Part shown: positions 13,250 to 27,233 of the stretch, one piece after another
Position numbering within the stretch: the first letter of the stretch is position 1
Layout of the letters: every line of letters starts with the position of its first letter
DNA from: an uncultured Rhodospirillales bacterium
Lineage (GTDB): Bacteria > Pseudomonadota > Alphaproteobacteria > Rhodospirillales > CAJXLG01
Length of the DNA: 35,710 bases
Direction: 5' to 3'
Assembly (NCBI GenBank): GCA_913055885.1
Contig: CAJXLG010000005.1
Location: 1 to 35,710 of the forward strand
Notes under the pieces: generated by a model
What the model saw: only the letters and a program-made list of their open reading frames with translations
Told to the model about the DNA's origin: nothing
Databases searched by the model: none
Program-made: the position numbers and the translations under genes

Positions 13250-14770
13250 ATGTCCTACGCCTCCCTGCGCGACTTCATGGCGCGCCTGGAGCACGACGGC
13301 GAGCTCGTGCGGGTGACGGAGCCCGTTTCCACCCACCTGGAAATGACGGAGATCCAGACCCGCCTGCTCAACGAGGGCGGCCCGGCCGTGCTCTTCGAGA
13401 CGCCCACGGACGCCGCGGGCCACACTGGCACCATGCCCGTGCTCGCCAACCTCTTCGGCACGGTGGCGCGCGTCGCCCGGGGCATGGACCGCACGCCGGA
13501 CCAGCTCCGCGAGGTGGGCGAGATGCTGGCCTTCCTGCGCCAGCCGGAGCCGCCCGGGGGCTGGCGCGAGGCGTGGAACATGCTGCCCCTGCTGCGCTCC
13601 GTCATGGCCATGAAGCCGCGCACCGTGTCGCGGCCGCCCTGTCAGCAGGTGGTGTGGACGGGCGGCGACATCGACCTCAACCGCCTGCCCGTGCAGACCT
13701 GCTGGCCGGGGGAGCCGGCGCCCCTCATCACGTGGCCGCTGGTCATCAGTCAGGGCCCCGGCGACGACAGGCGCGATGCCCCCAACCTGGGGGTCTACCG
13801 CATGCAGGTGACGGGCCCGGACACCACCCTCATGCGCTGGCTGCACCATCGCGGCGGGGCGCAGCAGTTCGCCCGCTGGCGCGAGCAGCGCCCGGGGGAG
13901 CCCATGCCCGTGGCCGTGGCCATCGGCGCCGATCCCGCCACCATCCTGGGCGCCGTCACGCCGGTTCCCGACACCCTGTCGGAATACCAGTTCGCCGGCC
14001 TGCTGCGCGGACGCAAGGCGGAGCTTGCCGACTGCCGCACCGTGCCGTTGCGTGTGCCGGCGCAGGCGGAAATCGTCCTGGAAGGCCACGTCATGCCCGA
14101 CGAATGGGGCGACGAGGGACCCTACGGCGACCACACGGGCTATTACAACGCGGTGGAAAGCTTCCCGGTGTTCCGGGTCTCGGCCGTGACCATGCGCCGC
14201 GATCCCGTGTATCTCTCCACCTTCACGGGGCGGCCGCCGGACGAGCCCAGCGTTCTGGGCGAGGCCCTCAACGAGGTCTTCCTGCCGCTCCTGGTGCAGC
14301 AGTTCCCGGAAATCCAGGACTTCTGGCTGCCGCCCGAGGGTTGCTCCTACCGCATCGCCGTGGTGCGCATGAACAAGGCCTATCCCGGCCACGCGCGGCG
14401 CATCCTCATGGGCGTGTGGTCCTACCTGCGCCAGTTTGTCTACACCAAGCTGGTGATCGTGGTGGATTCGGACATCGACGCACGTGACTGGAAGGACGTC
14501 ATGTGGGCCGTGAGCACCCGCATGGACCCCGCCCGCGACACCGTCACCCTGGAGAACACCCCCATCGATTACCTGGATTTCGCTTCGCCCGAGGCGGGCC
14601 TGGGTGGCAAGATGGGCCTGGACGCCACCACCAAGCTGCCCCCCGAGACGAAGCGCGAGTGGGGCGAGGCCATCCGCATGACGCGCGACGTGGTGGACCG
14701 GGTGTCGGAAAAGTGGGACCGTCTCGGGCTGCCCGGCAGCGGCGCCCCCATCTGGAAGGACCCGAAATGA
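13250..14770 (+). CDS. ubiD: UbiD-family decarboxylase
   Basis: 506 aa; [71 protein letters not shown]. Confidence 0.93.
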
Positions 14771-18763: not shown

Positions 18764-20230
18764 ATGGAAGGCGTGAACCGCAAGTGGTATTCCGGCATGG
18801 CCACGAACGAGGACTGGTGGGCCGTGTGGCTGGGGCTCATCCTGTTCGCGGCCGGGCTGTTCTCCATCGGCCGCATCGACCTGGTGGGCTGGATGGTGGA
18901 GACCAGCGTCTGGACGTGGGGCGACTTCTCCTTCAGCAACGCCCTCGATGTCACCCGCTACGAGGGCTGGCATCCGCTGGCCGGTCTGCTCATGGCTTAC
19001 GTCGTCTTCACGGCGCTCACGTGCCTGGGCGCCTGGTCCATGAAATTCAACGTCAGGCGCTTCTGGGCCGGCTGGACGGTGCTTTTCGTCCTCGCCTGGG
19101 CCTGCTGGATCATCGGGCACGAGGCCCATTTCGCCGTGCCCGTGAACGCGTGGGACGAGCACGGGCTCACCTGGGGCCTGTCCCTGGGCGGCGGCTTTTC
19201 CTACATCCTGGCGCTCGCCGTGGGGCTCATCATCGGCAACTTCATCAAGCCCCTGGCCGGCTTCCTGCACGAGGCCGCCAAGCCCGAATGGTTCATCAAG
19301 ACGGCCATCGTCTATCTCGGCATCAAGGTGGGCGTGAAGTCCATGGACGCCGCCGACAAGACCCTGGAGCTGGCGCTTGCCGGGGCGGCGGCGGTTTTCG
19401 TCGCCTATCTGCTGTTCTGGCCCATCGTCTATGCCCTGGGCCGGCGCGCCTTCAGGCTGCCGCGCGACGCGGCGGCGGTGCTGTCGTCGGGCATCTCCAT
19501 CTGCGGCGTCTCCGCCGCCATCGCCACGGCCGGGGCCATCCGGGCGCGGCCCGTGCTGCCTGTCATGGTCTCCATGCTCATCGTCATCTTCGCCATGATC
19601 GAGCTGGTGGTGCTGCCCGGGTTCTACACCTGGGTGGCGCCGGACCAGCCCATCGTCAACGGCGCCGCCATGGGCATGACCGTCAAGACGGACGGCGCCG
19701 ATGCCGCGGCCGGCGCCTTCCTGGAAGAGCTCATGCGCAGCAGTGCCGCCGCGCGCGGCACCCACTGGGAGCCGGGCTGGATCGTCACCTCGGCCATCAT
19801 GACCAAGATCTGGATCGACATGTTCATCGGCCTGTGGGCCTTCCTGCTGGCCATCGTCTGGGTGCGCAAGGTGGAGCACCAGCCCGGCCGCAGCCATGTC
19901 GGGCCCTCGGAGATCTGGCACCGCTTCCCCAAGTTCGTCATCGGCTATCTCATCACCTGGTTCGCCTACCTGGCCATCCTGGCGTTCCTGCCCGAGTTCA
20001 CGGCGGCCGCCAAGCCGGGGGCGGAGGTGGTGGAAGGCCCCATGCGCAAGATGATGTTCATGCTCACCTTCGTCTCCATCGGCACCATCACCGACTTCTC
20101 CAAGCTGAAGGGCATGGGGCGCCTGGCGCTGCTTTATGCCGTCGCGCTGTTCGTCATCATCGCGCCGCTGGCCTATTTCATCGCCTGGCTGTTCCACCGG
20201 GGCATGATGCCACCCACGGTGGGCGGCTGA
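18764..20230 (+). CDS. YeiH-family putative sulfate exporter / UPF0324-like membrane protein
   Basis: 488 aa polytopic; LAVGLIIGNFIKP, TAIVYLGIKVGVKSMD, LSSGISICGVSAAIATAGAI, MFMLTFVSIGTITDFSKLKGMG. Confidence 0.85.
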   Translation: MEGVNRKWYSGMATNEDWWAVWLGLILFAAGLFSIGRIDLVGWMVETSVWTWGDFSFSNALDVTRYEGWHPLAGLLMAYVVFTALTCLGAWSMKFNVRRFWAGWTVLFVLAWACWIIGHEAHFAVPVNAWDEHGLTWGLSLGGGFSYILALAVGLIIGNFIKPLAGFLHEAAKPEWFIKTAIVYLGIKVGVKSMDAADKTLELALAGAAAVFVAYLLFWPIVYALGRRAFRLPRDAAAVLSSGISICGVSAAIATAGAIRARPVLPVMVSMLIVIFAMIELVVLPGFYTWVAPDQPIVNGAAMGMTVKTDGADAAAGAFLEELMRSSAAARGTHWEPGWIVTSAIMTKIWIDMFIGLWAFLLAIVWVRKVEHQPGRSHVGPSEIWHRFPKFVIGYLITWFAYLAILAFLPEFTAAAKPGAEVVEGPMRKMMFMLTFVSIGTITDFSKLKGMGRLALLYAVALFVIIAPLAYFIAWLFHRGMMPPTVGG

Positions 20231-20253: not shown

Positions 20254-20294
20254 CGCCGCCCGGCCGGGTGCCCCCTGGCCGGGCGGCGTCTTTT
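20254..20294. terminator. Rho-independent-type terminator between convergent genes
   Basis: CGCCGCCCGGCC / GGCCGGGCGGCG, 12-bp perfect stem (20254-20265, 20277-20288), followed by TCTTTT. Confidence 0.8.
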
Positions 20295-22183
20295 CAGGTC
20301 GTTTCCGGCCACTCGGGAAGCATCACGGTCACGGTGGTGCCTTCCCCGGGCGTCGAGGCGATGCGCAGGCTGCCGCCGTGCCGGGCGACGATGGCGTTGC
20401 ACAGGGCCAGGCCGACGCCGGTGCCGGGATAGGTGTCGGCCGTGTGCAGGCGGCGGAAGGGCTGGAAAATGATGTCCTGGTATGCCGGGGCGATGCCCTC
20501 GCCGTTGTCGGTGACGTGCACGGCGTGGCCGTCGGCCGTGGGCTCGGCGCTCACGTGAACGTGCGGCGTGCGGTTCCCGGGGACGAATTTCACGGCGTTG
20601 GAGAGAAGGTTTTCGAAAACGCTGTAGAGCTGGCCCGGGTCGCCGTGGACCGTGGGCAGGGGGGCGACGTGGATCACGGCGTCGGGGCGCGTCAGCCGGT
20701 CGCGGGCCGTCGCCACCGTGTGGTTGAGGTCCACGGGCTCGGCGCGCTGGGTCTGGCGCGACACCTGGAGATATTCCGCCACGTCGGCCACCAGGTCCTT
20801 CATCTGCCGGGCGCCGGCGACGAGATAGTCGATGTACTGGTCGGCGTCCGCGCCCAGCTCGCCCTTGTAGCGGCGCTTGAGAAGCTGGGCGTAGCTGGCG
20901 ACGTTGCGCAGCGGCTCCTGGAGGTCGTGGCTCGCCATGTAGGTGAAACGTTCCAGGTCGGCATTGGTGCGGGTGAGGAGATCAACACTCTCGCGCAGGG
21001 CCTCCTCGCGCTCGCGCACGGTCCGGTCCATGCCGTCAAAGGCCCGGGCCAGGCGGGCCACCTCGTCGTTGCCGGCGGGGGGCGGCGGCGCGGCCTCCGG
21101 CGCCTCGCCCGATTCCAGCATGCGCACCCGCGTCAAGAGGTCCCGCAGCGGCCGGCTGATCATGCGGTCCAGGAGCCACGCCCCGAGCGGCGCCAGCACC
21201 AGCGCCGTCATCGCCAGCACGCCGAGGGTGATCCAGGCCAGGCGGCTCCGCTGGACCATCAACTGTGCCTTGGGCAGGCCCACCAGCAGGGCCGCGCTGC
21301 CGCCGCCGTCGAGGGTCACCCGCGCCCCCGCCAGGAAGGTGTCGGGTCGCTGGATGGTCAAGGGGGCGGCGTCGCCGTCGGCGATGGCGCGCAGGCTGGG
21401 CAGGCTGCCCGGGGAAAGGCCGGGCGGCACGGCGGGCCCGTTCTTCATGTGCACGGGCCCGTCCGGCAGCATCATGGACAGGCCCAGGCGGTAGCGACCG
21501 GCGATCCGGGCCAGGGCCTGCGGCCGCAGCAGCCGGATCACCCGCAGCGTCCCGGCCCGCGCGCCGGACCCGTTGTCCGGCCGGCTCACGCGCGCCACCG
21601 CTTCCAGCGCCAGGCCCTCGCGCGCCGCCCAGGTCACCACTTCGCCGCTGGCGGCGCGCATGGGCGTTTTAAGCAGTCCCGGGGCGGGCACCGTCCGCGC
21701 TTTCCGCGCGCCCGGGGGCTGGTGTCGCAGCACCGGCTCGCCGCCGGCGTAGGAGCGGAAGGCGGTGAGCGGCGGCGCGCCGGGCCGCGCGGCGTACAGG
21801 GCCGCCACGCCCTCCGCCCCGGCGTAGACGGCGGCGAAGTCGAGATGCGCCGCCTGCGCCCGCCGGCGCAGCACCCGCGCCAGGCGGCGCTTTTCCGGGT
21901 CGAAAATCAGCTCGCGGTAGGATTCCGGATCCTCGTACCGGGCGATCAGATGGGCCGTGGCGACAACGTCTTTCTGGGACGCCAGGGTCCCGGCCGTCGC
22001 GCCCAGGCTTTCGCGGCGACTCTCCATCTCCGCCGCGACGGCCCGGAAGCCGCTTTCCACCAGGTTCCGGAAGGTTTCCCGGTGGATGGCCTGGAGCTGC
22101 CACACCACCAGACCGGCCAGGAGCCCCAGAACCAGGAGCACCGACCCCAGCCATGTGAGCAGCAGCTTGTGGCGAACGGACAT
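20294..22183 (-). CDS. Membrane sensor histidine kinase (HAMP-HisKA-HATPase)
   Basis: N-terminal TM, extracytoplasmic region, second TM, RMISRPLRDLLTRVRMLESG (HAMP), MASHDLQEPLRNVASYAQLL (H-box), DPGQLYSVFENLLSNAVKF, GTGVGLALCNAIVARHGG; start 22183 with AGGAGG. Confidence 0.93.
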   Translation of the reverse strand: MSVRHKLLLTWLGSVLLVLGLLAGLVVWQLQAIHRETFRNLVESGFRAVAAEMESRRESLGATAGTLASQKDVVATAHLIARYEDPESYRELIFDPEKRRLARVLRRRAQAAHLDFAAVYAGAEGVAALYAARPGAPPLTAFRSYAGGEPVLRHQPPGARKARTVPAPGLLKTPMRAASGEVVTWAAREGLALEAVARVSRPDNGSGARAGTLRVIRLLRPQALARIAGRYRLGLSMMLPDGPVHMKNGPAVPPGLSPGSLPSLRAIADGDAAPLTIQRPDTFLAGARVTLDGGGSAALLVGLPKAQLMVQRSRLAWITLGVLAMTALVLAPLGAWLLDRMISRPLRDLLTRVRMLESGEAPEAAPPPPAGNDEVARLARAFDGMDRTVREREEALRESVDLLTRTNADLERFTYMASHDLQEPLRNVASYAQLLKRRYKGELGADADQYIDYLVAGARQMKDLVADVAEYLQVSRQTQRAEPVDLNHTVATARDRLTRPDAVIHVAPLPTVHGDPGQLYSVFENLLSNAVKFVPGNRTPHVHVSAEPTADGHAVHVTDNGEGIAPAYQDIIFQPFRRLHTADTYPGTGVGLALCNAIVARHGGSLRIASTPGEGTTVTVMLPEWPETT

Positions 22184-22417
22184 CGGCCCTCCTGGTCCTT
22201 CTCCCCACAAGCATGCCCCGGGGCCCGGGCCGACTCAAGACGCTCACGAAAACATAAAATTGGAACGATTCTTAACCCTAAGGGTAAGAGCCGGCCCGGG
22301 CGCTCATACCCCTGAACCCGGCCCTTATCCTCCTGCAGGGATTCCCGGCGGGCCGCGTTGTGGCAGACTGGGCCCCGTAGACAACGAACAATCCCGCTTG
22401 GCCGATGGAGACCAGCC

Positions 22418-22588
22418 ATGAAGGACGCCACGACGACCCCCGCCCCGACGAGCGCCGTTGCCCGGGCCCGCGAGACCCGCGAGCGGGTCCAGGCCCTGCG
22501 TGCCGCCATCGCCCGCTTCGACGAGATCGATCTGCACGGCATCCTGAGCAACCTGCACGGCATGCGCGCCTACGCGCGCAAGGGCTGA
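22418..22588 (+). CDS. 56-aa microprotein, paralogue 1
   Basis: MKDATTTPAPTSAVARARETRERVQALRAAIARFDEIDLHGILSNLHGMRAYARKG; near-identical core to the ORF at 22645. Confidence 0.75.
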   Translation: MKDATTTPAPTSAVARARETRERVQALRAAIARFDEIDLHGILSNLHGMRAYARKG

Positions 22589-22777
22589 CGCCCCTTGCGC
22601 CGTGGCATGCGCCGGGGGAGAACGCCGGCCAGGGAGGACAGGTCATGAAGGACGCCATGACGCATCCGGCCGCCAGGAACGCGGCCGCCGACCGCGCCCG
22701 CGAGACACGGGAGCGGGTCCAGGCCCTGCGTACCGCCATCGCCCGCTTCGACGAGATCGACCTGCGCGGCATCCTGA
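22469..22777 (+). repeat. Direct duplication of a 79-bp coding core, offset 230 bp
   Basis: 22469-22547 and 22699-22777 differ at 5 of 79 positions by manual alignment. Confidence 0.9.
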
Positions 22778-22818
22778 TGGAACTCCACGACCTGCGGCAC
22801 TTCATCCGCCGCATTTAA
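22645..22818 (+). CDS. 57-aa microprotein, paralogue 2
   Basis: MKDAMTHPAARNAAADRARETRERVQALRTAIARFDEIDLRGILMELHDLRHFIRRI; AGGGAGGA upstream of ATG. Confidence 0.78.
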   Translation: MKDAMTHPAARNAAADRARETRERVQALRTAIARFDEIDLRGILMELHDLRHFIRRI

Positions 22819-22856: not shown

Positions 22857-22890
22857 CTGCTCCGCTCCCGCCGGGAGCGGAGCAGTTTGT
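22857..22890. terminator. Strong hairpin/terminator between microproteins and the hyp operon
   Basis: CTGCTCCGCTCCCG-C-CGGGAGCGGAGCAG (perfect 14-bp arms) followed by TTTGT. Confidence 0.75.
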
Positions 22891-22904: not shown

Positions 22905-23936
22905 TCAACAGATCCGGGGCAGGGCCTCGCCGGAGAGCCAGTCCACCAGGTGCCGGCCGCCGTAGGCCGTCTCCAGCTCCACGAAGCCGTGGTCGTCGTG
23001 GACCATCTCCCCGATCCGCACGGCATCGCGCCCGAGGGGGTGCGTCTGCATGGTGGCGAGCAGGGCGTCCACCCGGCCGGGCGGGCAGACAGCGACGAGG
23101 CGGCCTTCGTTGGCGACGTGCAGCGGGTCCAGGCCCAGAAGCTCGCATGCCCCGCGCACCGGCGCCCGGACGGGGATGGCGGATTCCCGCAAAAGCATCC
23201 CCACCCCCGACTGCTGCGCGATCTCGTTCAGCGCCGCGGCCACGCCGCCGCGCGTGGGATCGCGCAGGCAGCGCAGTTCGGGCACCGCCTCCACCATCCG
23301 GCTCACCAGGCCGTGGAGGGGCGCCGAATCCGACACCACGTCGCTCTCGAAGCCCAGCCCCTCGCGCCGCGACAGCACGGCCACCCCGTGCTCGCCGATG
23401 GGCCCGGAAAGCACCACGGCGTCCCCGGGCCGGGCGTTGGCGCCGCCGACCTCGACGCCCGGCGGCACTAGGCCGACGCCCGTGGTGGTGATGTACAGGC
23501 CGTCGGCCTTGCCGCGTTCCACCACCTTGGTGTCGCCCGTCACCACGGGCACGCCGGCGGCGCGGGCGGCGCGGCCCACGCTCTCCACCACGGCGGCCAG
23601 GTCCCTGAGCGGCAGGCCCTCTTCCAGGACCAGCCCCAGCGCCAGATAGAGCGGCCGGGCGCCCGCCATGCTCACGTCGTTGATGGTGCCGTGGACGGCC
23701 AGGCTGCCGATGTCGCCGCCGGGGAAGAAGAGGGGCTGGATGACGTGGCCGTCGGTACTCATGACCATGCGCCCGCCCGGGACGTCGAAGGCGCCGAAAT
23801 CGTTGCCCTCGGCGAGAAAGGGATTGTCCAGATGGGCGCGGAACAGCTCGTCCACCAGGCGGGCCATGGCGCGGCCGCCGCCGCCGTGGCCCAGCTCCAC
23901 ACGGCCGTTTTCCAGGTCCAGGGCGGAATCCGTCAT
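22905..23936 (-). CDS. hypE: Hydrogenase expression/formation protein HypE
   Basis: GHGGGGRAMARLVDELFRAHLDNPFL, DPTRGGVAAALNEIA, C-terminal PRIC. Confidence 0.97.
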   Translation of the reverse strand: MTDSALDLENGRVELGHGGGGRAMARLVDELFRAHLDNPFLAEGNDFGAFDVPGGRMVMSTDGHVIQPLFFPGGDIGSLAVHGTINDVSMAGARPLYLALGLVLEEGLPLRDLAAVVESVGRAARAAGVPVVTGDTKVVERGKADGLYITTTGVGLVPPGVEVGGANARPGDAVVLSGPIGEHGVAVLSRREGLGFESDVVSDSAPLHGLVSRMVEAVPELRCLRDPTRGGVAAALNEIAQQSGVGMLLRESAIPVRAPVRGACELLGLDPLHVANEGRLVAVCPPGRVDALLATMQTHPLGRDAVRIGEMVHDDHGFVELETAYGGRHLVDWLSGEALPRIC

Positions 23937-25063
23937 GCCGCCCCCTCCGCCGCGCTTTTGCGGCCGGCGCCGCGCCGGCGCCAGCGGGCGGCGCACGCCC
24001 CCTCCGACGATACCATGCACGCCCCCACGGGATTCTCGGGGGTGCACTCGGTGCCGAACAGCCGGCACGCCTCGGGCGCCACACGCCCCCGGATGACGCC
24101 GGGGCAGGCGCAGCCGCGCGGCTCCGGCTCCGGCGTGTCGGGCAGGGAGAAGGTGCGCTCGGCGTCGAAGGCGGCGCAGGTGTCGCGCAGGGCCAGGGCG
24201 CTGTGCGGCAGGTGGCCCAGGCCGCGCCAGGCGAAGCTTTCGCGGGGGATGAAGACGGCGTCGATGACCCGGCGTGCCTGCGGATTGCCGTCGGCGTCGA
24301 GGGCCCGGCCGTAGGCGTTGTCCACCCCCGCTTCGCCGGCGTTGACGCGCTTCACCAGCAGATACACGGCGTGCAGCAGGTCCAGGGGCTCGAAACCGGT
24401 GACCGCCACGGGCACGCCGTGGCCCTCGGCGAATTCGCGATAGGGCTCCGTGCCGATGATGGTGCTCACGTGGCCGGGCCCGATGATGCCGTCCAGCGGC
24501 GGCGCCGTGGTGTCGTCCAGGATGCCGCGCATGGCCGGCGGGGTCATGACGTGGTTGCAGAAGACGCGGAAATTGGCGAGCCCTTCCGCCGCCGCCTGCT
24601 GCACGGCGACGGCCGTGGGCGGCGTGGTGGTCTCGAAGCCGATGGCGAAGAAGACCACGGTGCGGTCCGGGTTGTCGCGGGCGAGCGTGAGGGCGTCCAG
24701 GGGGGAGTAGACGATGCGCACGTCCGCCCCGTCCGCCTTGGCGCGCATGAGGCTGCGGCCTTCCGGCCCGGGCACGCGGATCATGTCGCCGTAGGTGGCG
24801 AGGATGGTGCCCGGCTGGTCGGCGATATGAAGCGCCCCGGCCAGGCGGCTTACGGGCAGCACGCACACGGGGCACCCCGGTCCGTGGATGAGGCGCACCT
24901 GGGGCGGCAGCAGGGCGTCCAGGCCGTGGCGGGCGATGGCGTGGGTGTGGCCGCCGCAGAACTCCATCAGGCGGTAGGTGGCCTCCGGCGCCACCGTCCC
25001 GGCGATGGTGGCGGCCAGGTCCTTCACCCGGCCGGGATCGCGGAAGGCGTCCCCCGCCGTCAC
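23933..25063 (-). CDS. hypD: Hydrogenase formation protein HypD
   Basis: 376 aa; MEFCGGHTHAIARHGLDALLPPQVRLIHGPGCPVCVLP; ATGA overlap with hypE. Confidence 0.97.
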   Translation of the reverse strand: MTAGDAFRDPGRVKDLAATIAGTVAPEATYRLMEFCGGHTHAIARHGLDALLPPQVRLIHGPGCPVCVLPVSRLAGALHIADQPGTILATYGDMIRVPGPEGRSLMRAKADGADVRIVYSPLDALTLARDNPDRTVVFFAIGFETTTPPTAVAVQQAAAEGLANFRVFCNHVMTPPAMRGILDDTTAPPLDGIIGPGHVSTIIGTEPYREFAEGHGVPVAVTGFEPLDLLHAVYLLVKRVNAGEAGVDNAYGRALDADGNPQARRVIDAVFIPRESFAWRGLGHLPHSALALRDTCAAFDAERTFSLPDTPEPEPRGCACPGVIRGRVAPEACRLFGTECTPENPVGACMVSSEGACAARWRRRGAGRKSAAEGAA

Positions 25064-25341: not shown

Positions 25342-26436
25342 CTAGCATACGGATTCGCGGGCCAGGGCAGCGGCCCACGCCTGCCCCAGGGCGAGCCCCG
25401 GGTCGCCCGGCGACACGGCCTCGGGCAGCAGCACGCGCAGCCCGCGCGCCTCCAGGCGCGGCACCAGGGCCCGGCGCAGCGCCCGGTTGAGCAGGCAGCC
25501 GCCGCCCAGGGCCACGGTGTCGCGCCCGTGGGCCTCGGCGGCGGCGCCGATCCAGGCGTCCAGGGCGGCGGCCAGGGTGCCGTGGAACAGGTCGGCCCCT
25601 TCGCGCTGGTCGGCCGTGTCCGCCAGCCGGTCCAGGAGCGGGCGCAGGTCGAGCACGCCGTCCTCCGTCACCCGCCAGCCGTCGTCCAGCACCCGAGGCG
25701 TTTCCACCAGGCCCTCCAGGGTCATGGGGGCCTGGCCCTCGAAATCCGCCACGGGACACACCCCCAACAGGGCCGCGGCGGCGTCGAACAGACGGCCGGC
25801 GCTGGTGGTGGGCAGGGTGTTGATGCCCCGCTGGAGCACGGTGGGCAGGGCCGCCGCATGGGGCTGGTCGGCGAAACGCTCGGGGATGGCGTCGGCGCGC
25901 CCCAGGTCGTGCAGGGCGGCGGCGGCCATGCGCCACGGGGCGCGCGCCGCGGCGTCGCCGCCCGGCTGTTGCAGGGGGCGCAGGTGGCCGATGCGCGCGT
26001 AGGCGGGGCCGTCGGAAAGCAGCAGTTCGCCGCCCCAGGCCTCGCGGTTCTCGCCCAGCCCGAAGCCGTCCAGGGCCACGCCCAGTACCGGGCCGACAAC
26101 GCCGTGCTCCGCCATGACGGCGGCGACGTGGGCGTGGTGGTGCTGCACCGGCACGGCCTCCAGGCCCGACTCGCGGGCATAGCGGGTGGTGGGGAAGTCG
26201 GGATGATAGTCGTGCGCCACGGCCACCGGCGCGGCGCCCGCCGCCGCCGTCAGATCGCGGGCGGCGGCCTCGAAGGTGCGGACGTTCTCCGCCGTGTCCT
26301 GGTTGCCGCAATCGGGGGCCAGCCACGCCATGCCGCCGTGCACCACGCACGGCGCCACCTTGAGATACGCCCCCACGGCCAGGACGTCGGGAACGTCCCG
26401 GCCCAGGGGCAGGCGGGCGGCCACGGCCGCCGTCAT
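25342..26436 (-). CDS. hypF: Truncated HypF: Kae1-like carbamoyltransferase domain only
   Basis: [87 protein letters not shown] overlap with hypB leaves no room for the acylphosphatase/Zn-finger/YrdC domains. Confidence 0.9.
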
Positions 26437-27233
26437 GGCGCCTCCGCCAGCGCCGGTGCCTCCGCCGGGGCCGGCCGCCGGGCGTCGATCCAGGCGTACC
26501 AGGCATCCAGCCCTTCGCCGGTGGTGGCGGACAGGCGCAGGCACCGAAGGTCCGGGTTCACCTGCCGCGCCCAGGCCTCGCACTGGTCGGCGTCGAAATC
26601 CAGGTGGGGCAGCAGGTCCACCTTGTTGAGCACCATGAGATCGGCATTGGCGAAGATGTCGGGGTACTTGAGGGGCTTGTCCTCGCCCTCGGTGACGGAA
26701 ACGATGACCACGCGCGCCCCTTCGCCCAGGTCGAAGGCGGCGGGGCAGACGAGGTTCCCCACGTTTTCCAGGAAGACCACGCCGTTCTCCGGCACGCCCA
26801 GGTGGTCCAGGGCGTGGCCCACCATGTGGGCGTCCAGATGGCAGCCCTTGCCGGTGGTGACCTGGAGGGCGGGCGCCCCCGTTTCCCGGATGCGGTCGGC
26901 GTCGCGGCCCGTCTGCTGGTCGCCCTCGACGACGGCCGTGGGATGGCGGCCGGCGAGGTCGCCCAGGGTACGCACGAGCAGGGTGGTCTTGCCGGCGCCG
27001 GGGCTGGAGACGAGGTTCAGGGCCAGGCTGCCGGCGGCGTCCAGGCGCGCCCGGTTGGCGGCGGCGTGACTGTTGTTGTGGTCGAGGACGTCGCGTTCGA
27101 TCTGCACCAGGCGGCCGCCGTCGTCGGCGCCGCTGCCGCCGGCGAAGGCCAGGGTGCCGTCGTCCGCCGCGTGATGATGGTGGTGGTCATGGCCGTGGTC
27201 GTGGCCGCCGCACCCGCAGACGCTGCACATCAC
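26433..27233 (-). CDS. hypB: Hydrogenase nickel incorporation GTPase HypB
   Basis: [20 protein letters not shown]-terminus, [15 protein letters not shown]-loop, [14 protein letters not shown]. Confidence 0.97.

Follow-up and report, generated by a model that had tools for sequence, protein, structure and literature searches.

Within a 35,710-nt stretch of DNA from an uncultured Rhodospirillales bacterium (the whole stretch analysed, hereafter the window), two short open reading frames (ORFs) lie in tandem between a sensor kinase gene and hydrogenase maturation genes, and the question that they raise is whether they encode a pair of paralogous microproteins and, if so, what such proteins might do. 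The features of the locus, numbered by window position, are as follows.

20294-22183, minus strand: membrane sensor histidine kinase (HAMP, HisKA and HATPase_c by Pfam), divergent neighbour
22184-22417, no strand: intergenic region between the kinase gene and W1, with the imperfect palindrome CTTAACCCTAAGGGTAAG at about 22271-22288
22410-22462, plus strand: duplicated ribosome-binding region and N-terminus, copy 2 at 22637-22689 (repeat search)
22418-22588, plus strand: W1 microprotein, 56 aa, MKDATTTPAPTSAVARARETRERVQALRAAIARFDEIDLHGILSNLHGMRAYARKG (ORF, Shine-Dalgarno site, GC3, homologues)
22454-22566, plus strand: duplicated core copy 1, 113 nt (repeat search; 86% identity to copy 2)
22645-22818, plus strand: W2 paralogue, 57 aa, MKDAMTHPAARNAAADRARETRERVQALRTAIARFDEIDLRGILMELHDLRHFIRRI (ORF, Shine-Dalgarno site, GC3, match to W1)
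22684-22796, plus strand: duplicated core copy 2, 113 nt (repeat search; offset 230 bp)
22857-22885, plus strand: perfect 14-nt inverted repeat closing the W1/W2 unit, followed by TTTGTGTG (repeat search and folding)
22905-23942, minus strand: hypE (AIRS and AIRS_C by Pfam), convergent neighbour, followed by hypD and hypC

Coding signals and duplication of W1 and W2

Both ORFs were present at 22418-22818 as originally predicted, encoding 56 and 57 aa. The W1 ATG is preceded by GGAG and the W2 ATG by GGAGG, in each case 7 nt upstream, and GC content per codon position was coding-like in both (0.70/0.55/0.95 for W1 and 0.72/0.46/0.91 for W2), so that translation signals, whose absence would have counted against the original prediction, are present. 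An overlapping alternative frame at 22405-22644 had a GC content per codon position of 0.89/0.66/0.64, unlike W1 and W2, and this comparison supports the W1 and W2 frames and not the long frame from 22405. The two proteins, which are arginine-rich with a pI of 10.8-11.0, were 70% identical (E = 1.7e-17).

The 74/79 nucleotide identity first reported for the core is consistent with the six differences that we counted in a 28-codon core (RARETR..GIL). In addition, the repeat search returned a second block of 53 nt (72% identity, 227-bp offset) that spans the ribosome-binding region, the MKDA start and the N-terminus, and the 3-base gap between the 230- and 227-bp offsets corresponds to one extra codon in W2 (AAADR vs AVAR). 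Because this block reaches the N-terminus, the N-termini are homologous with a one-codon indel; thus, of the original claim that both tails differ, the C-terminal part stood (the last ~14 residues diverge) and the N-terminal part did not. The duplicated unit therefore begins in the ribosome-binding region and reaches almost to the end of the ORF, with true divergence limited to the C-terminal ~14 residues, and W1 and W2 would have arisen by tandem duplication of a whole ORF together with its ribosome-binding site. No further copies were found in their own genome (a 2.96-Mb draft, 88.6% complete).

Within the 28-codon core dN was 0.034 and dS 0.192, a dN/dS of about 0.18 that rests on small counts (six changes) and is not near 1, while the whole shared stretch gave about 0.75. 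W1 and W2 show constraint in the core and a C-terminus that is free to vary or is changing.

Boundaries of the pair and its neighbours

The pair was described as divergent from a sensor kinase, convergent with hyp genes and closed by a strong terminator. Pfam confirmed the first two, assigning HAMP, HisKA and HATPase domains to the upstream gene and identifying the downstream one as hypE. The terminator claim fared less evenly: the hairpin at 22857-22885 is strong (-39.2 kcal/mol, z = -4.5), but its T tract (TTTGTGTG) is weak and a consensus terminator scan did not call it. The inverted repeat is nevertheless a probable intrinsic terminator, and it is plausible that the pair forms a self-contained transcription unit; the intergenic region 22184-22417 contained no recognisable sigma-70-like promoter. 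W1 and W2 would then be two translated genes in one small operon.

Position beside hypE could suggest that the pair serves hydrogenase maturation. We consider this a remote prospect, since position is all that speaks for it, while the genes are convergent with a terminator-like hairpin between them and no relative of W1 or W2 was beside hyp genes in the neighbourhoods read. Two features of the surroundings were recorded separately. A HypF-like ORF in the window (25342-26583, minus strand) carries the C-terminal Kae1-like carbamoyltransferase domains alone (PF17788, PF22521), without the N-terminal acylphosphatase/zinc-finger/YrdC half, which may be encoded elsewhere; a HypB-like gene lies directly upstream. 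A PF03601 (YeiH-like) transporter gene occurs near W1/W2 (window 18764-20230, plus strand) and another near the relative D2 described below (L074, 11333-12343, plus strand), possibly by coincidence.

Relatives in other spirilla

A search of 297 genomes of the order with the W1 sequence alone gave one meaningful result, a tandem pair in Insolitispirillum peregrinum DSM 11589 (G106), where the two matches (E = 1.8e-4 and 7.7e-4) lay about 410 bp apart on one contig. For a query of 56 aa, the placing of both matches in one tandem pair itself speaks against chance. The ORFs concerned, I1 (73 aa) and I2 (65 aa), are on the same strand, each with a Shine-Dalgarno site, and downstream of the second is a terminator-like hairpin that has a T run. 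Most W1 matches at E 0.01-0.1 were left unused, being located in long frames. A profile of W1, W2, I1 and I2 found a second tandem pair in the same genome (I3/I4), next to lrgAB. The next profile, run against 317 genomes of the order, placed all members in the source genome of the window and in six genomes belonging to a single other family (E values of 1e-8 to 1e-22), well clear of noise at 0.003. Homologous ORFs therefore exist, including a second tandem pair in another genus. The members in the six genomes were as follows.

I. peregrinum DSM 11589 (G106): subtype 1 pair I1/I2 and subtype 2 pair I3/I4 (L081, L082)
Novispirillum itersonii ATCC 12639 (G114): N1 and N1b (L075, L076)
N. itersonii DSM 11590 (G090): M1 and M1b (L077, L078)
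Rhodospirillaceae bacterium BRH_c57 (G294): B1 (L080)
G166: C1 (L079)
G160: D1 and D2 (L073, L074)

Profile searches of samples from the class (385 genomes) and the phylum (399 genomes) gave no convincing member; two weak hits were rejected, one inside a long enzyme-like frame (L083) and one in an arginine/alanine-rich stretch (L125). Plasmid tblastn and a single-sequence scan of genome contigs with W1 returned nothing, nor did a viral-contig scan with one Insolitispirillum protein.

Members were delimited by a first helix carrying ARETR..(A)F/L R..(I/V).RF, a second amphipathic helix and an ORF of <100 aa, all of which W1 and W2 display, and the family proteins range from 56 to 99 aa. Subtype 1 (W1, W2, I1, I2) has [AR]F[DE].I[DN][LMI]..I[LMF]..L..[ML]R and occurs in just 2 of the 317 genomes, as a tandem pair in both; for the homology of W1 to the Insolitispirillum ORFs (L003/L081), the profile E value was 1e-26. 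Subtype 2 (I3, I4, N1, M1, B1, N1b, M1b, D1) has RF..EMP.[HY]LDRFH.AM or a sequence near it, and C1 and D2 form a third variant (alignment A5). Profile-profile comparison joined subtypes 1 and 2 at a probability of 94.8% (E = 5e-8), a value that is not independent because subtype 2 was found with the subtype 1 profile. Alignment A6 proved too diverse to be used in scanning a collection. Copies within a locus were 70% and 45% identical vs about 30% across genomes, so that either the tandem duplications were separate events or the copies have been homogenised. Upstream of positions 13905 and 13476 in L081, the two Insolitispirillum copies have a common block like TTTTGAAAT(G/C)T..GCGACAT, so that each gene may have been copied together with its promoter or leader. 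The family members L054, L055, L068, L069 and L070 end in AAE, which may be a conserved tail motif.

The Novispirillum orthologues N1b and M1b, compared over 46 codons, differed by 24 synonymous vs 2 non-synonymous changes, with 23 of the 26 at third positions and a dN/dS of about 0.01, a pattern that points to clear purifying selection on the family proteins. For the family, the same pattern in practice already refutes a reading of the repeat as a non-coding or DNA-level element whose ORFs arose by accident. Such an element would agree with the high DNA identity of the core and with an Rfam search whose sole match was at chance level (CRISPR-DR28, E = 0.44), but not with protein-level homology across genera or with the ribosome-binding sites, and we regard its probability as negligible. 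With paralogy, homologous ORFs in other genera, purifying selection and translation signals all observed, the duplicated and selected coding core of the original prediction held. W1 and W2 almost certainly belong to a real, undescribed family found in a few Rhodospirillales-type spirilla.

The settings of the relatives varied: a FolD-like gene, lrgAB or a PAS kinase preceded them at some loci, and at others mutY lay nearby or the neighbour was an IspE-like gene or an ammonium transporter with a GGDEF domain (the FolD-like and IspE-like genes being assigned by reading the translation, not by family search). Thus, in answer to the copy-number and neighbourhood check proposed at the outset, the genome of the window holds two copies and the neighbours vary among relatives. 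That they vary by locus argues for action in trans over a role tied to the hydrogenase or to the adjacent kinase. No conserved partner gene was found; among relatives only the mutY/lrgAB neighbourhood recurs. That the loci have no partner in common suggests a product that acts in trans and is transcribed as a unit of its own. The mutY neighbourhood is common to Novispirillum and BRH_c57, which argues for vertical descent of the family.

Predicted structure and comparison with known families

The AlphaFold2 model of W1, built from seven sequences, contained helices at residues 12-35 and 39-55 (pLDDT 75, pTM 0.38), and the subtype 2 protein I3 was predicted as a single helix from residue 2 to 56 (pLDDT 91.6). 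The predicted helices of W1 and W2 are amphipathic, and the C-terminal helix of W2 is cationic with a moment of 0.65. An amphipathic, coiled-coil-like helix had been expected of the core; the amphipathic character was borne out, but W1 was predicted, at modest confidence, to form not one helix but two, interrupted at residues 36-38. Helical character of the family is well supported by these predictions; the packing of the W1 helices, as a hairpin or an extended coiled coil, is tentative at a pTM of 0.38 with seven sequences. A PDB fold search gave no match, and the best PDB sequence-profile match (E = 0.081) was taken as chance.

We propose that W1 and W2 are soluble alpha-helical microproteins acting in trans as adaptors or modulators, a reading to which we assign a probability of roughly one in three (about 0.35). 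The constant element of the family, its amphipathic helix, would dock on a partner, either each other or a larger regulatory protein, and the diverging C-terminal helix of each copy would set specificity. Near-neutral turnover is likewise compatible with repeated duplication and relaxed tails.

The family was not recognised when first noted, and this stands: Pfam and NCBIfam contained no relative of W1 or W2, nor did PADLOC (one chance-level match only) or the PDB. Four family members matched an unnamed PHROGs family weakly (best E = 0.007). W2 scored 17 bits (E = 0.0065) against the MmyB-like regulator ligand-binding domain (PF17765), below its 26.3-bit cut-off; W2 alone scores, not W1 or the relatives, and the score is probably compositional. 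NepR proteins are small alphaproteobacterial helical regulators similar in length to W1 and W2. The NepR model (PF18557, cut-off 25.7 bits) matched no family gene in 5 genomes, and, unlike NepR, family genes were not beside ecfG/phyR in the neighbourhoods read; EcfG-type GGAAC and GTTCC motifs were not enriched upstream of them.

The small DUF1127 (YjiS-like) proteins are the best-known functional analogue, being likewise short and arginine-rich with two predicted helices, several copies per genome and tandem pairs in the same organisms as the W1/W2 relatives; ARFDEIDLHGI also weakly resembles ARLDDRLLRDI of DUF1127. In Agrobacterium, PhoR is a binding partner of small DUF1127 proteins (PMC12501420), W1 and W2 are divergent from a sensor kinase, and C1 (L079) has a PAS histidine kinase gene immediately upstream. 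By analogy, W1 and W2 might bind and tune a sensor kinase, perhaps the divergent HisKA/HATPase protein, or RNA. We consider this unlikely, however, because most relatives have no adjoining kinase and because the two families failed to meet in any search: the conserved DIG(L) motif is missing from W1 and W2, the local-set motif L..[ML].DR.L.DIGL.R is absent from both and from their relatives, hmmscan with the Pfam model (PF06568, cut-off 23.3 bits) matched neither, a search of their own genome at E <= 1 found G000:C66 only, and profile comparison (hhalign) gave a probability of 0.7%. DUF1127 tandem pairs about 500-670 bp apart occurred in G166 (C5, 84714 and 85234), G160 (C33, 32004 and 32497), G114 (C2, 300701 and 301213) and G090 (C12, 40805 and 41471).

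The tandem arrangement and the amphipathic, cationic C-terminal helix of W2 could also be read as those of a short cationic membrane peptide pair, such as a peptide toxin or leaderless bacteriocin-like system. This is highly improbable, given that the sequences contain no hydrophobic transmembrane-like stretch or leader, that no immunity or export gene occurred in the neighbourhoods read, that subtype 2 includes the mildly acidic I4 (pI 6.0) and that conservation lies in the N-terminal helix.

Candidate CtrA boxes upstream of family genes

Exact TTAA-N7-TTAA boxes lay 41-72 bp upstream of I1, N1b and M1b, and no other exact box occurred in 200 kb of neighbourhood sequence; boxes with one mismatch lay upstream of three more family genes. 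Allowing up to one mismatch, the noncoding sequence upstream of family genes (2366 bp) contained 6 boxes vs 5 in 34409 other noncoding bp, a post hoc enrichment (Fisher p = 2.5e-5) for a motif picked by eye after the sequences had been viewed and with N1b and M1b, as orthologues, not independent. Only 7-11 exact sites occurred per genome in the species of I1, N1b and M1b. TTAA-N7-TTAA is the known CtrA motif (PMC9437464), and in Rhodospirillales flagellar genes are under CtrA control (PMC8116508), so that the family could belong to a motility or cell-cycle regulon of CtrA and act on its phosphorelay or outputs. Against this, genome-wide counts fell below those of the reversed-pattern control in 6 of 7 genomes, and the intergenic region 22184-22417 lacked the canonical box, offering a TTAACC half-site alone (at 22272, inside the imperfect palindrome). 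Membership of that regulon is distinctly unlikely on present evidence, and the upstream motif is best taken as a suggestive lead. A combined version, in which the microproteins are under CtrA-type control and pair as heteromers to tune a regulator of the cell cycle or of motility, the constant helix serving as dimer interface and the variable one conferring specificity, is very unlikely.

These microproteins add a small selected protein family that is in none of the libraries searched, and its presence in culturable strains (I. peregrinum, N. itersonii) should make deletion and tagging feasible. Were the CtrA link true, the CtrA system would gain a small-protein output in an order that branches early and in which the role of that system is less known; if not, the family is one more lineage-restricted set of small proteins.

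TTAA occurs just 3 times in the 35.7-kb window. Three GANTC (CcrM-type) sites, at 22232, 22267 and 22340, fall in the 234-bp intergenic region 22184-22417 vs 55 in the entire window.
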